A DNA stretch of 45,399 nt from Bacteroidota bacterium (lineage in GTDB: Bacteria > Bacteroidota > Bacteroidia > AKYH767-A > 2013-40CM-41-45), in the NCBI GenBank assembly GCA_026391975.1, contig JAPLDB010000037.1:1-45399 (forward strand). Reading direction: 5' to 3'. Below the pieces are notes generated by a model. The model was given only the letters and a program-made list of their open reading frames with translations. It was not told the DNA's origin and ran no database searches. Of this stretch, positions 4,188 to 45,399 are shown one piece after another; within the stretch, counting starts at the first letter, position 1, and every line of letters begins with the position of its first letter. The translations under genes and the position numbers were made by a program.

Positions 4188-5018
4188 TCAGGAAGGGAGT
4201 TCTTCCTCGTCAATAGAAGAAGATATATCATTGCCTTGCTCAAACGATTCGTCCTGAAGGCTTTCGCTTTCTAAAAATATCTTTTTACGGTCAGGCAGTT
4301 CATCTGAATCAGGATTTTCATCAGTCAGAATTTGCAAATTTTCCTCAACCGGTATTGTTTCAGTGATTTCAGTTTCTGAAAGCACGGTTTCAGAAAAAAC
4401 TTCTACGTTACTTTCGTTCAAAACGAGCGTTTCAACTTCTGAAGGCAAGTCTTCCATGGACTGCTCTGATTCACCGATCTCGTTTTGCGGAGCACGTAAA
4501 TCCTTTAATTGCGGAAGATCAGTCACATTCTTAATTCCGAAATAGTCCATAAAAACCTGACTGGTGGCGTAAAGCATCGGTCTTCCCGGACCATCACTTT
4601 TGCCTTGCATCACAATCATCTCCTTTTCAAGCAGCTTCTGAACAGCGTAATCGCAATTTACACCGCGGATGTGCTCAATTTCTGTTTTAGAGATGGGTTG
4701 TTTGTATGCAATGATTGCAAGGGTTTCCATCTGGGCTACAGAAAGTTTCTTTTTGGCTTTGTGCTGAAGAAGTGCAGCAAGGGTGCTATGGTATTCTTTC
4801 TTGGTAAGGAACTGATACCCCTCAGCTATTTCGCAAAGTTCAAATGCAAAATCTTCAGGAAGGTATTTCTGTCTTATTTCTTCAATGGCGTTAATAAGAT
4901 CTTCATCCCTCACTTCCCATCCCATAGACAATTTCAGAGAAGCCTGAATTTCATCCAGGGTAATACAGTTCTCAGAGCAAAAAATAAGCGCCTCTATATG
5001 TTGTTTCAGTAGTTGCAT
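4188..5018 (-). CDS. scpB: Segregation and condensation protein B
   Basis: Subunit of the SMC-ScpA-ScpB condensin that compacts and segregates the chromosome. The first ~180 of 276 residues form the two winged-helix domains: QHIEALIFCSENCITLDEI at the start, then KKKLSVAQMETLAIIAYKQPISKTEIEHIRG, GRPMLYATSQVFMDYFGI and LPQLKDL, all hallmark ScpB segments. Residues about 185-276 are a low-complexity acidic tail rich in Glu, Ser and Asp (many EE, ES and SE pairs), longer than in typical ~200-residue ScpB, and probably disordered. The downstream DUF3108 gene begins 130 bp after its stop. scpA is not in the window. Confidence 0.92.
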   Translation of the reverse strand: MQLLKQHIEALIFCSENCITLDEIQASLKLSMGWEVRDEDLINAIEEIRQKYLPEDFAFELCEIAEGYQFLTKKEYHSTLAALLQHKAKKKLSVAQMETLAIIAYKQPISKTEIEHIRGVNCDYAVQKLLEKEMIVMQGKSDGPGRPMLYATSQVFMDYFGIKNVTDLPQLKDLRAPQNEIGESEQSMEDLPSEVETLVLNESNVEVFSETVLSETEITETIPVEENLQILTDENPDSDELPDRKKIFLESESLQDESFEQGNDISSSIDEEELPS

Positions 5019-37988: not shown

Positions 37989-39884
37989 CTATTCAATGAT
38001 CAACCGCTTCGTGATTACACCCTCTTCTCCACTCACTTTTAAATTGTAAATTCCCTTTGAAAGCTGTGAGAGATTTATTGAAACAGATTGAGCACCTGCT
38101 TCTGCATGAATCAGTTCTTCATAAACGGTTCTTCCTGTCATATCAGAAACAGTTACATCAAGTTGCTTTGTTCTATCCATATACATCTCAAGTGAGAATA
38201 TTCCTGTATTCGGATTCGGATAGAGACTTAAATGTTGAATAAAAGTATGCATTGCTGTTCCTGTACACAGGTCAACATGGGTTGTTGCCGTTGTTGAGTT
38301 CACGCAACCTGATGTAAAATCAGTAAAAGTATAGGTGATGGTATGATCCCCCGGGCCTGCCATTGCAGGATCGAAATACCGGTTCGCAGGACCAAATAAG
38401 CCCGGTCCTGAAAAAGTTCCGCCTATCGGAGTTCCGGTGAGCGTGTCTTGATCGTGGTACACACAGTAGAAAGTATCCAGTCCTGTAACGTTTACAGAAG
38501 GCAATCCTGAATATATAACCAACACAGGAGCTGAGGTCGCGGTACAGTTGGATGTATCACCGGCAACAACATAATAAGTTCCCGCCTGGGTGATGAGTAA
38601 TGAATCGTTGTCACTGTTGCTCACAGCATTTCCGTCAAGGAACCACTCATAATGATATCCGTTTCCGGCCGGTGTCCTCAGGACATAAGGATTGATGGTA
38701 TCGCACACATAAATTGTATCATTGTTATTGATTGCAGCTACCGGTGAACATACAGTACCTTCAAAACGGTAAATGCCACCATTGCCATAATCAGCGCAAT
38801 AAAGTTCACCCCAGCGGTCTTCACCGAAAGCAACAACTGTAGAACGACCCAGCGCTCCCAGCATTGTTGCTGTCCATCCGCCGGTTCCATTGGGTTCCAG
38901 TGTACGGAACTGATAGGTACTTGTAAATTCATCAGTAAAAAAATATTTTCCATACATGTTGGAATACTTTGCACCCCTGTACCTGTATCCACCCACGATC
39001 GCTGCGCCGTTATTGGCATACTCATAAATCGGGGCATCATATGCTGAAGCTGCCTGACAGCCCGCAGTATTGTAAGGATGACCATTTCCTTCATAACACC
39101 GCCACCCGTAATTGCCGCCATGTTTTGTGGTAGGTTGGTAATCAACTTCCTCCCATGCATTTTGTCCTACATCTCCTACCCACAAATCACCATTCCACCT
39201 GTCAAAACTCCATCTCCATGGATTCCGGTGCCCGATGTCCCAAATTTCACCCCTGCCATTCCCGCCAACCAATGGATTATCGGATGGAATATTATAGGCA
39301 ACACTTGTATCACTTACATCAATGCGAAGCATTTTTCCAAGTAAGGAATCAACATTTTGTGCACGGTTCCCCGGATCACCGCCACTGCCGCCATCACCGG
39401 TTCCGATGTACAGATAATGGTCCTTCGGACTGAATGCAAGATGCCCGCCATTGTGGTTTGAATATGGTTGCCAGATAGTCAACAGTATTTGTTCGCTGTT
39501 GGCATCAACAGAGTCCGGATTTGTGTCGCTGACCCTAAACCTTGAAATTCTTGTATCGCCATGTGTTTGGGCAGTATAATTCACATAAATGAACTTGTTA
39601 TTTTTAAAATCAGGGTCAAATGCAAGTCCCAACAATCCTCTTTCTCCTCCTGATAAAACCCTCGTATGAATATCAAGGAAAGGATTGGGAAATGTGTTTC
39701 CATTGGTATCTACAATTTGAATGTATCCTGCCTGCTCAACAATGAATAATCTGTCATCGCCACAATTTTTGATGTCTACAGGAGAAGAAAAACCGGTTGC
39801 GAATGAACTCAAAGTAATTTGCGCATTGGAGGAACTGAAAAAGAATAATATGAACAGAAGGCAGGTTGTAAACAATTTTTTCAT
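37989..39884 (-). CDS. PQQ-dependent glucose/sorbosone dehydrogenase-like T9SS protein
   Basis: Secreted six-bladed propeller protein of 631 residues. After a signal peptide (to SNAQ, about 21), residues 22-380 match the glucose/sorbosone dehydrogenase (soluble aldose dehydrogenase, Asd/GcdB-like) family: FSSPVDIKNCGDDRLFIVEQAG, RGLLGLAFDPDFKNNKFIYVNY, NHNGGHLAFSPKDHYLYIGTGDGGSGGD, GHRNPWRWSFD and VGDVGQNAWEEVDY. Family members oxidise aldoses using PQQ; whether this one binds PQQ is not proven. Two Ig-like domains (380-450, 455-540) and a type A sorting domain follow (LYPNPNTGIFSLEMYM ... GIYNLKVSGEEG ... RLIIE). A TACTTTTG box lies upstream on the minus strand. Confidence 0.9.
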   Translation of the reverse strand: MKKLFTTCLLFILFFFSSSNAQITLSSFATGFSSPVDIKNCGDDRLFIVEQAGYIQIVDTNGNTFPNPFLDIHTRVLSGGERGLLGLAFDPDFKNNKFIYVNYTAQTHGDTRISRFRVSDTNPDSVDANSEQILLTIWQPYSNHNGGHLAFSPKDHYLYIGTGDGGSGGDPGNRAQNVDSLLGKMLRIDVSDTSVAYNIPSDNPLVGGNGRGEIWDIGHRNPWRWSFDRWNGDLWVGDVGQNAWEEVDYQPTTKHGGNYGWRCYEGNGHPYNTAGCQAASAYDAPIYEYANNGAAIVGGYRYRGAKYSNMYGKYFFTDEFTSTYQFRTLEPNGTGGWTATMLGALGRSTVVAFGEDRWGELYCADYGNGGIYRFEGTVCSPVAAINNNDTIYVCDTINPYVLRTPAGNGYHYEWFLDGNAVSNSDNDSLLITQAGTYYVVAGDTSNCTATSAPVLVIYSGLPSVNVTGLDTFYCVYHDQDTLTGTPIGGTFSGPGLFGPANRYFDPAMAGPGDHTITYTFTDFTSGCVNSTTATTHVDLCTGTAMHTFIQHLSLYPNPNTGIFSLEMYMDRTKQLDVTVSDMTGRTVYEELIHAEAGAQSVSINLSQLSKGIYNLKVSGEEGVITKRLIIE

Positions 39885-39907
39885 TTGAATGTGTTTAAAT
39901 AGTCCGG

Positions 39908-39915
39908 CAAAAGTA
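39908..39915 (-). promoter_or_regulatory. Candidate -7 box for the PQQ-dehydrogenase-like gene
   Basis: On the minus strand this reads TACTTTTG, an exact TAnnTTTG match, 23 nt before the ATG at 39884. A TTTCG (one base off TTTG) lies about 20 nt further upstream. The divergent CotH gene starts 168 bp away. Confidence 0.4.
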
Positions 39916-40028
39916 ATATTCTATATGAAGAATCCCGAAATTTCCTAAATCAGATCATTTTTGGATAATTCACCAAGAAAATACTGCCGTTCGTCAAAAT
40001 GTTCAAAAATTAAGCTTCATGATGTGCA

Positions 40029-40056
40029 TTTGGGAGGAATTCTGTAATTATCTTTA
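40029..40056 (+). promoter_or_regulatory. Candidate promoter of the CotH giant
   Basis: TTTG at 40029-40032, a 16-nt spacer (slightly short), then TATCTTTA at 40049-40056, one mismatch from TAnnTTTG, 27 nt before the ATG at 40084. The same TATCTTTA box occurs before the beta-helix cargo gene. Confidence 0.35.
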
Positions 40057-40083
40057 GTCCATCAACAACTAATACGCTTTACC

Positions 40084-43000
40084 ATGAAATTATTTACCCG
40101 CAACTTTTGGGTGGCGATGCTACTCCTTTTATTTTTTTATTTCAACCGGTGCTTATTCGCAGGTAGTAATAAATGAGATTACTCCAAGTAATAATGGATC
40201 TTTTACCGATGAATATAAATCAAATCCTGATTGGGTTGAATTATACAATGCCGGATTATCGGCAGTAAACATCAATGGTTATGGATTTTCAGATAATATA
40301 ACAATCCCATTAAAATGGACATTTCCAGACATTACAATTCCATCCCATGGTTATTTTATTGTGGTGACTGACGATACAAGTAAAAAGCAGACTACCCATC
40401 ACTGGGAAAGTGCTGCAAAAGCAAACGATTCCTGGAAGTATAAAATTCCCGCTGCAGGGGCTGATACCAACTGGAGAAATCTTTCATTCAATGATGCAAC
40501 ATGGACAAGCGGAACAGGTGGAATGGGTTTCGGCGACGCTGATGACGGAACAACCATTGCAACAAGTTCTGTTTCTGTTTACATGCGCAAAACTTTTACA
40601 ATTGCCGACACAGGAAAAATTACGCAAGGTGTTTTCAATATGGATTATGATGACGGATTTGTAGCTTACCTGAATGGGAAAGAAATTGCCAGGGCAAACC
40701 TCGGAACATCCGGTATTCGTCCGGCATATAACCTGCTTGCAACTGCTTCTCACGAAGCAACACTCTATCAGAGTCAAAAACCTGATTCATTTTACCTTAG
40801 CAAAACATTCCTTGCCACTGTTCTAGTAAACGGAACCAATGTATTAACTGTAGAAACGCACAACAACAGTGCAACCTCCACAGACCTTTCAAGCAATCCG
40901 TTTTTATCATTTGGATTGACAGACAATGTAACATATTTCAGCGCGCTCCCATCCTGGTTTTTAGCTCCGCCAACTGAGTATATGCATGCCAAATTCAAAC
41001 TTGACAAAACAGGCGAAACTGTTTTACTATCTGATGCACTTGGAACCATTCTAGATCAGAAAACATATCCGAACATGGAGATTGATGACAGCTATGGAAG
41101 AAGTACAGATGGTGGTTCAACGTGGTGCTATTTTGAAACACCAACAGCAGGTGCAACAAACAATTCTTCTGTTTGTGCAACAGGCTACGCCTCTATTCCA
41201 TTGTTCTCTCTCACCGGTAATTTCTATACCGGTTCGCAATCACTCACGCTAACAACAACACAGCCCGGCGGAGTGATCAGGTATTCAAGAGACGGGACCG
41301 ATCCGACAACTGCTTCAACGGTTTATTCTACCCCTATCAATCTTGATACAACGCAAGTAATCCGTGCCAAAGTATTCGCAACAGGATTCTTGCCGAGCGC
41401 AACCATAACCAATGATTATTTCATTAATGAAAACACAAAACTTCCGATTCTTGCGATTACAACAACACCGGGTAATCTGTGGGACTATAATACAGGCATC
41501 TATGTGATGGGACCAAATGCAAGCACAACAACTCCTTACTTCGGTGCAAACTTTTGGATGGACTGGGAGAAGCCGGCAACGATTGAATACTTTGACAAAC
41601 AAAAGAACCGTGTTTTTAAATTCAACGCCAACATCAAGATCAACGGTGGATATTCGAGGGCAAAACCACAAAAGAGTTTTGAGGTGAAGATGGATGACAA
41701 ATGGGGTACAGCCGCCATTGATTATGCATTGATCCCTGACAAAAGTTTCATTACGAAATGGGATGACTGGGTCATACGGAATGCAGGGAGCGATTGGCAG
41801 AGGGCTCATTTGAGGGATCCGGCGCTTGAAAAAAATCTGAAAAACACAAATGCATCTTACATGGCACAGGAACCTTGTCTGGGATTTGTAAATGGACAAT
41901 TTTTCGGTGTTTATTACCTTGATGAAAACGATGACCATAACTTTGTAAAAAATAATTACGGATACGGCAAAAGTGAAATAGACTTCCTTGCATCCAATAG
42001 CGGTGCAACGGAAGTAAAGCAAGGCAGCGATTCGGCATTCAATGCGATGTATGCTTATGCAACTGCATCCAGTCCATCTGCAGGCACATATTATTCTACA
42101 ATGAATGGAATGTTTGACCTGATGAATTTCGCTGACTATTTCATTTCGGAAATTTATTGTGGCAATAGCGATTGGATTGGTGACTGGAAAAACAATATAA
42201 AACTTTGGAGGCCAAGGACCCCGACCGGAAAATTCAAATACATCACTTATGACCTTGATCAGTCTGCGGGGTTAAATGTTACTTATTCCGACAACACGCT
42301 CACCCGTGCACGAAGACCAAACTTAGCAAATCCTTTTTCCGGAATGTTTGACAAATTGTTATCGAACACCCAGTTCAAACAATACTTCATTAACAGGTAT
42401 GCCGATTTACTGAACACTATTTTTCTTCCCACAAATGTGCTCAACCAGAAAAATGCTGTGAAGGACAGCATCAATGCTGATATGTCACGCAACTTTGCAA
42501 AATACGGAGGAAGTACTTCGGCATGGAATACAGAATTAAGTTCGTTCACTTCATTCATTAACAACCGGACATCAAATTGTAGAAACCAGGCACAAGCGGA
42601 ATTTGCTTTGACAGGACAAGTAACACTCACCTTAAATACTTCGCCTGCAGGTTCTGGCCATATCATCATCAGCACGATTTCTCCGGCAAGCTATCCCTGG
42701 ACCGGTGTTTATTTTAATGGAAATCCTGTAACGATTACTGCTGTTCCCAATCCGGGATATACGTTCAATTATTGGAAATCTACCGTTGCATTTCCTGTCA
42801 ATAATACCAATCAGACAGTGACACAAAACTTCACTGCTACCGATGCAATTACTGCCTATTTTACAGGAAGTTCTGCATCAACACAAATTACTTTCAGTGA
42901 AGTGAATTACAATTCAAGTTCAACTGCTGATGCCGGCGACTGGCTTGAGTTGTGGAATTATGGCACAACGTCACTTGATATTTCTTCATGGTACCTGAAA

Positions 43001-45399
43001 GATGAAAATGACAACCATAAATATACTTTCCCGGCAGGAACAGTACTTGCTTCCAATGGAAGGCTGGTACTTGCAACGGAAGTTGCGAAATTCCAGGCAC
43101 GTTTTCCTTCTGTAAGCAACTATCAGGCTATTGATTTCGGATTTGAAAATGGCGGAGAAACTATCCGTTTATATAAATATGACGGAACAATTTATAAATC
43201 ATTTATATACGATAATAGTGCCCCATGGCCGCTCACTCCTGACGGACAAGGATACACACTTGAATTATTAAGCCAGACAGGTAACCTTGATGATGGTGCT
43301 AATTGGTTTGCGGGTTGTCCGGGTGGATCACCCGGTGTGGCCTATAGCGCAGGTGCATGCTGTTCTGTAACGGCAACAGTTACCGCAGGAGGTGCAACCA
43401 CTTTCTGTACCGGATCAAGTGTGGCTTTAACTGCAGCAACCGGAACCGGGTACACATATCAGTGGAAAAAAGACGGAACAAACATTTCAGGTGCTACAGC
43501 CATATCTTATGTTGCAAATTCAACAGGTGCATTCACCTGTGCGGTAACAAGTGGCACCTGTACCCAAACTTCAAATTCGATTACAGTAACTGTCAATACT
43601 GCACCAACTTCAACCATCACACCTGCAGGTTCAACAACGATCTGTACAGGAAGCAGTGTTGTACTGAATGGAAATACAGGAACAGGTTTGACCTACCAAT
43701 GGAAACTTAACGCTGTAAATATTTCTGGTGCAACAGCTGCTTCATATACCGCAAATGCTATCGGTTCATATACGCTGTCAGTCACAAATTCATGTGCCAG
43801 TACCACCTCCGCAGCAACTGTAATAACTGTAAATCCATTGCCGACAGCAACCATTACTCCGGCAGGGTCGACAACAATATGCACAGGAAGCAGTGTGGTG
43901 CTCAATGGCAATACAGGAACCGGGTTGACCTATCAATGGAAACTCAATGCCTCTAATATTTCCGGCGCTACTGCTGCAAGTTACACTGCGAATGCTGCAG
44001 GATCGTTTACTCTTGTTGTGACCAACATTTGTGGAAATACAACATCATCTGCAATAGTTGTAACAGTTAACCCATTGCCAACGGCAACGATAACCGCCGG
44101 AGGACCTACAACTATTTGTACAGGTAATACAGTTGTGCTGAATGCAAACACAGGAACCGGCCTCACCTACCAGTGGAAAAATAATGGTTCTGCAATTTCG
44201 GGAGCCACTGCTGCTTCATATACTGCAAGTGCTTCAGGCTCTTATACTGTTGTAGTCAGTAATACCTGTGGCAATTCAACCTCTGCAGCAACTGTAGTTA
44301 CTGTAAGCGGAACAATTACTGCGACAATCACCGCCGGTGGACCAACTACATTCTGTACCGGCGGAAGCGTACTATTGACAGCATCAACAGGCACAGGATA
44401 TACGTACCAGTGGAAACTGAATGGCGCCAATATTTCAGGTGCAACGCTAATCACTTATGCTGCAAACGCTGCAGGAAGTTATGCTGTTGCGATTTCAAAT
44501 GGTGCATGCACAGCTACTTCATCAGCTACATCAATTATAGTCAACACTGCACCTCCGGCAACTGCAACGGCTGCAGGATCAACTCAGCTTTGCGGAGGAC
44601 AAACAGTTGTGATCAACGCCAATACCGGAACGGGGCTGACTTATCAATGGAAACTCAATGCAGTAAATATTTCCGGCGCTACTGCAGCTTCCTATACAGC
44701 AAGTACAGCCGGGTCCTATACTGTTTTGGTCACAAATTCTTGCGGTAGTGCTACGTCTTCTGCAGTTGTTGTTACCTCAGGAAGTATCACTGCAACTATT
44801 ACTGCCGGTGGATCTGTAAGTTGGTGTGGAACAGGAAGCGTATTGCTAAATTCAAACACCGGAACGGGTTATACATACCAATGGAAAAGTAGCGGAGCAA
44901 ATATCAATGGTGCCACTGCAGCGACATATTCTGCAACAACTGCCGGAAGCTACACAGTTACAATTACGAGCGGGGCATGCTCCGGGACTTCAAATGCAAT
45001 TACGGTAAGTACAACTACTGCACCCGTTGCCACAGTTAGCCCAATGACTATTTCCAAGTGTGCAAGTGCTTCAGTTACGCTCACTGCCTCTCCTCAAGGA
45101 ACAGGATATACCTACCATTGGCTGAAAAATGGCGCCTACATAAACAGTCTGACTGCAACACATACATCCGCCACTGCAACCACAGCCACTTATGCATGCA
45201 CGGTTACTAACGCCTGTGGCTCTTCCACTTCAGCAAATGCAACGGTAACAGTCAATTGTCGTGAATCAAATGACGATGCATCAATCGTAGATGGATTACA
45301 GGTAAAAGTTTTTCCAAATCCTTTTACGAATCAACTTTCAGTTATAGTCAATACTGAATCGGAAAATGAAATTATCATTCGGATATTTGATTTGCTGGG
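40084..45399 (+). CDS. Giant T9SS cargo: lamin-tail / CotH kinase / Ig-repeat protein, frameshifted in signal peptide, 3' end outside window
   Basis: About 1770 residues are visible. ATG 40084 opens a signal peptide (MKLFTRNFWVAMLLLLFF) but that frame stops at 40174. The main frame (from 40142, STGAYSQVVINEITP) is open to the window edge. Dropping one T from the T7 run at 40132-40138 joins the two into a normal signal peptide. Domains: lamin-tail domain, split around a galactose-binding-like insert (about 40385-40970); chitobiase-like C-terminal domain (VIRYSRDGTDPTT); CotH kinase-like domain (41440-42430: KINGGYSRAKPQKSFEV, FVNGQFFGVYYLDE, YITYDLDQSAG); InlB-B-type repeat (42640-42860); second lamin-tail domain (42890-43345); eight Ig-like repeats (43373-45256); and the start of a sorting domain (VFPNPFTNQLSVI). 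CotH proteins are atypical kinases that phosphorylate secreted proteins. The gene runs off the right edge. Confidence 0.88.
43373..45256 (+). repeat. Eight tandem Ig-like domain repeats, 237-bp period
   Basis: Repeat starts fall at 43373, 43610, 43847, 44084, 44321, 44558, 44792 and 45029. The first five intervals are exactly 237 bp (79 residues); one is 234 bp and the last 237. Each unit has the same skeleton: TITAGG.TT.CTG..V.L.A.TGTG, then YQWK.NG..ISGAT, then YTA...GSYTV.V.N.CG. Units two and three share long nearly identical runs. Cys in 'CTG' and in the last strand could form one disulfide per domain. These probably form a stalk holding the CotH and lamin-tail domains away from the surface. 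Confidence 0.92.

Follow-up and report, generated by a model that had tools for sequence, protein, structure and literature searches.

The break in reading frame at the start of the gene for a giant CotH/Ig protein probably reflects either a fault of assembly or a recent, random mutation and not an evolved on/off switch. The analyzed stretch of DNA (here called the window; 45,399 nucleotides) is the entire contig C177 of a draft genome of 239 contigs (3.61 Mb), of which 965 kb (∼27%) was surveyed, in stretches, for similar lesions. We weighed four explanations, i.e., a consensus error, an undirected null allele, phase variation, and bypass of the break during expression; the likelihoods assigned to them below are judgements and were not computed.

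On the forward strand, two frames meet at a run of seven thymines (T7; positions 40132 to 40138), as read directly from the sequence. Translation from the ATG at 40084 gives a signal-peptide-like start frame of 30 codons (40084 to 40176), reading MKLFTRNFWVAMLLLLFFYFNRCLFAGSNK up to the stop codon at 40174 to 40176, with the same layout as in the N termini of intact homologues. The main open frame (40088 to 45397; 1770 codons), the translation of which begins with NYLPATFGWRCYSFYFFISTGAYSQVVINEI, is closed on its upstream side by a TGA (40085 to 40087) and runs to the contig end without a usable start; it contains no ATG, GTG, or TTG before codon 92 (GTG at 40361), a position well within the mature protein. 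Since the other two frames of this open reading frame contain 85 and 98 stops, the main frame was taken to be real coding sequence. Joining both frames at the T run yields a signal peptide ending in AYSQ, judged as such by eye, the halves of which lie in the two frames. The description in the original prediction thus agreed with our reading: a start at 40084 that stops at 40174, a T7 tract at the stated place, a startless main frame open for more than 5 kb behind the TGA at 40085, and a one-base difference in the run that sets the frame. An alternative start of the main frame was rejected, none being present before codon 92 and an in-frame ATT at the run giving no signal peptide. The signal-peptide region also contains a hairpin resembling a terminator, with T-rich sequence after it, at 40109 to 40125 (1 versus 0.1 expected from shuffles of this short region).

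The domains of the main-frame product were assigned with Pfam. A CHB_HEX_C_1/Fn3-associated domain (41213 to 41410; residues 376 to 441) precedes a CotH kinase-like domain (PF08757; 41633 to 42574; residues 516 to 829; E value of 1.6e-29), which, with a score of 103.9 bits against a cut-off of 23.8, places the predicted product in the CotH kinase-like family. Further downstream are two lamin tail domain stretches, the better of which spans 42869 to 43201 (PF00932; residues 928 to 1038; E value of 1.3e-25), and Ig-like repeats (Ig_7), the best of which spans 45026 to 45256 (PF19081; residues 1647 to 1723; E value of 5.9e-14). At the contig end lies a tail-like sequence, FPNPFTNQLSV..., within which the contig stops and for which Pfam reported no Por_Secre_tail. 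This LTD/CotH/Ig protein is probably an ordinary secreted surface protein of the Bacteroidota, with a putative type IX secretion tail; its putative surface location follows from the combination of a signal peptide, a tail-like end, and Ig repeats. Three further full-length relatives are encoded in the same genome (49 to 52% identity), and relatives from other genomes of the family reach up to 56% identity over 680 residues. The LTD/CotH/Ig proteins of this family of genomes resemble the window copy in both the N terminus and the CotH region; however, all those inspected have their start and signal peptide in frame, and the window copy alone does not.

More generally, the N termini of 42 homologues were read, 21 from the same genome and its family and 21 from wider genomes, and all 42 were in frame, with ATG as the start codon in all except two (TTG or GTG). 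A run of T7 to T9 was found near the signal peptide in 13 of these 42, at differing positions and of differing lengths, while many homologues had no run at all; a T tract at a constant place across the 42 homologues was not found. Two of the paralogues in the same genome (with T8 and T7, respectively) and three family relatives, including the closest one (T7), are in frame despite carrying a T run. The tract was also sought elsewhere, in a collection in which this genome alone represents its genus; DNA relatives matched only at ∼65 to 71% identity (longer matches), and a search of viral contigs for the locus gave no match.

The tract itself is unremarkable. T7 occurs 34 times in the window, versus a shuffle mean of 44. 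Of 40 signal-peptide-like genes in an initial 274-kb sample, 10 had an A/T run of at least 7 within their first 90 nucleotides, although these genes were chosen by an in-frame ATG, so that the figure measures how common runs are and not how often they are broken. Across the 965 kb surveyed, coding A/T runs numbered 1,197 at length 6 and 477 at length 7 or more, and 85 of the latter fell in the first 100 nucleotides of genes. By both the window shuffles and the 965-kb survey, then, the T7 tract is neither unusually long nor enriched over background, and long A/T runs in Phe-rich signal peptides are frequent in this genome; hydrophobic cores rich in Phe and written with TTT codons would account for such runs without a switch. 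A start missing this far past the onset of coding was seen in only 8 of the 603 genes tested (at least 2 of these 8 at N gaps); the unusual feature of the locus is the absent start, not the T7 itself. Separately, a homologue in another Bacteroidetes metagenome-assembled genome (L033) carries both a T8 and a T9 run in one signal peptide (∼35 and 19 bases before position 5001) and is in frame; it would be a more promising place than the window copy to look for polymorphism in tract length.

These observations bear directly on the proposal, made in the original prediction, that slipped-strand mispairing at the T run acts as an on/off switch, with a run length that changes often and reversibly and thereby toggles export of the surface protein within a population. 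The run does lie within the signal peptide, the protein is probably displayed at the surface, and a single base sets the frame; in addition, the same genome contains a glycosyltransferase-like gene (L098:11615-12684; C119:51615-52684) in which an A6 run (L098:12235-12240; C119:52235-52240) divides the coding sequence into two overlapping frames, while a family relative with 54% identity reads through. Surface-glycan genes are classic phase-variable targets. Moreover, there is precedent for a tract this short in the 5′ A6/A7 run of inlA (PMC2831843). Against this stand the ordinary length and frequency of T7 in this genome, the lack of conservation of tract position and length, with none of the 42 inspected homologues in the off state, and the rates measured at tracts so short, which are near 1e-7; a search of a partial literature collection also gave no report of type IX cargo undergoing phase variation at a homopolymer, which is a weak argument. 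The switch was therefore not upheld, and we consider phase variation unlikely here. A broader idea appears more improbable still, namely, that the run functionally switches CotH/Ig giants exported by the type IX system and that it and the broken A6 glycosyltransferase belong to a small group of surface genes in this lineage that are controlled by short A/T homopolymers. A real switch would mean that homopolymers drive one form of surface variation in Bacteroidota and would make population-level heterogeneity plausible for CotH/Ig giants.

Breaks elsewhere in the assembly offer a more prosaic context. The single-copy gene purL (L158:4147-6320; C113) is missing a near-C-terminal stretch that its relatives have, and the remainder of the gene is out of frame. 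A conserved hydrolase gene (C230, near 62558) lacks ∼25 residues compared with its relatives, with a change of frame there and no homopolymer. Finally, porG, a core type IX secretion gene (L127, minus strand, ∼1049 to 1110; C65), contains a TAA within its signal peptide, whereas its relatives are intact. A healthy cell that encodes several type IX cargo proteins would hardly be expected to lack an intact purL or porG, and some of the breaks, at least, therefore probably arose in assembly.

The genome-wide survey relied on a codon-pair frame-change model, which was tried on planted one-base deletions and detected 75 of 78 when set permissively and 54 of 73 when set more strictly. At an intermediate setting, the 965 kb yielded 97 frame changes, mostly ordinary gene neighbors; as the automatic list includes many overlaps of adjacent genes and antisense artifacts, only cases checked against relatives are called broken here. 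The focal break was clearly found by the test for startless frames, but by the frame-change model only at the permissive setting, with the switch placed at 40134. It was missed at stricter settings because only 48 nucleotides of coding sequence precede the T run, and breaks near gene starts are accordingly underdetected by this model. Among ∼1,670 coding A/T runs of at least 6, just two were found out of frame: the focal T7 and the A6 of the glycosyltransferase. With only these two breaks in 965 kb, we rejected the idea of an assembly generally riddled with homopolymer errors. The assembly does contain runs of N of irregular length. In 800 kb (20 contigs) of a related genome, used as a control, no coding frame lay far from a start, versus eight here at the same threshold, and no break occurred at runs of at least 6; one methyltransferase-like gene was judged by eye to change frame twice. 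On small numbers and a single control genome, the genome containing the window fares worse.

Taken together, we tentatively place a sequencing or assembly consensus error first, slightly ahead of a real but undirected null allele, an assignment that we infer for this particular base. Several lines of evidence favor it: the in-frame start and signal peptide in 42 of 42 homologues, 13 of them with T7 to T9 nearby; the 1770 stop-free codons downstream; the breaks in purL, the hydrolase gene, and porG in the same assembly; the cleaner control genome (0 versus 8 startless frames and one broken gene in 800 kb); and the irregular N runs. If so, the T run would be one base off in the draft consensus only, in what would otherwise be an ordinary gene for a secreted protein, and in the cell population the signal peptide would be continuous and the protein exported. 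On the other hand, with 2 of ∼1,670 runs out of frame, the assembly is not generally poor at homopolymers; the faults in purL and the hydrolase gene are deletions and not homopolymer slips; and the lesions in porG, purL, and the hydrolase gene could themselves be real. A homopolymer assembly error had been named in the original prediction as the main alternative to the switch; with other conserved genes broken in the same assembly, it deserves at least equal weight.

A real null allele, in which replication slippage recently added one T in the sequenced strain, with no regulatory purpose needed, is also a serious possibility, though we hold it with less confidence than the consensus error. Its outcome would be a 30-residue peptide, and the giant surface protein would not be made. 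A/T runs slip readily, as illustrated by the 5′ A run of Listeria inlA (∼5.5e-7 for A6 to A7 and 3.9e-8 for A7 to A6; PMC2831843), and rates of this order agree better with sporadic null alleles than with rapid switching. The loss of one copy may, furthermore, be tolerated, given the three full-length paralogues in the genome. Such an allele would need to be young: a stop would arise from ∼4.2% of single-base changes in the main frame, so that in a null that is not bypassed, the first stop is expected after ∼16 substitutions, or 0.3% divergence (95% by 1.3%), and the 5.3-kb main frame is free of stops, which would limit the age to within ∼0.3 to 1.3% divergence. The several fault-like lesions in conserved genes of the same assembly speak against a genuine mutation and for the consensus error.

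The undecayed, open downstream frame would also suit a true T7 at which RNA polymerase or the ribosome slips often enough to produce the full protein, and bypass at homonucleotide repeats of 3 to 8 bases has been demonstrated experimentally (PMC3812077). However, when RNA polymerase slips in A/T runs, the usual outcome is the insertion of a single base, deletions being rare (PMC5574713), and a single inserted base leaves the frame in the window unrestored. The hallmarks of programmed frameshifting or slippage that we looked for were not found: the predicted folding of RNA 3′ of the T run is not more stable than that of shuffled sequences (z = −0.38), offering no stimulatory structure, and the inspected homologues share no conserved shift site, none of the 42 needing a shift. 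We therefore regard bypass as very improbable. Other readings were ruled out: a decayed pseudogene, by 1770 codons without a stop; an invertible promoter, by the lack of inverted repeats from 39780 to 40400; and a structured RNA, a tRNA being the only one in the window.

The locus carries a cautionary lesson in that a single out-of-frame copy, in one draft assembly that also breaks purL and porG, is no evidence of phase variation. The closest parallel among known systems is inlA of Listeria monocytogenes (PMC2831843), a surface-protein gene that, like the one in the window, has a short A/T run (6 to 7) at its 5′ end, and in both cases, one base more or less makes the difference between the full protein and a short peptide. 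The two differ in that the inlA run is a poly(A) tract, whereas the run in the window is a T tract inside the signal peptide. They also differ in the evidence behind them: for inlA, both alleles occur in natural isolates and reversion has been measured, whereas the locus in the window is represented by one consensus sequence, quite possibly an artifact.
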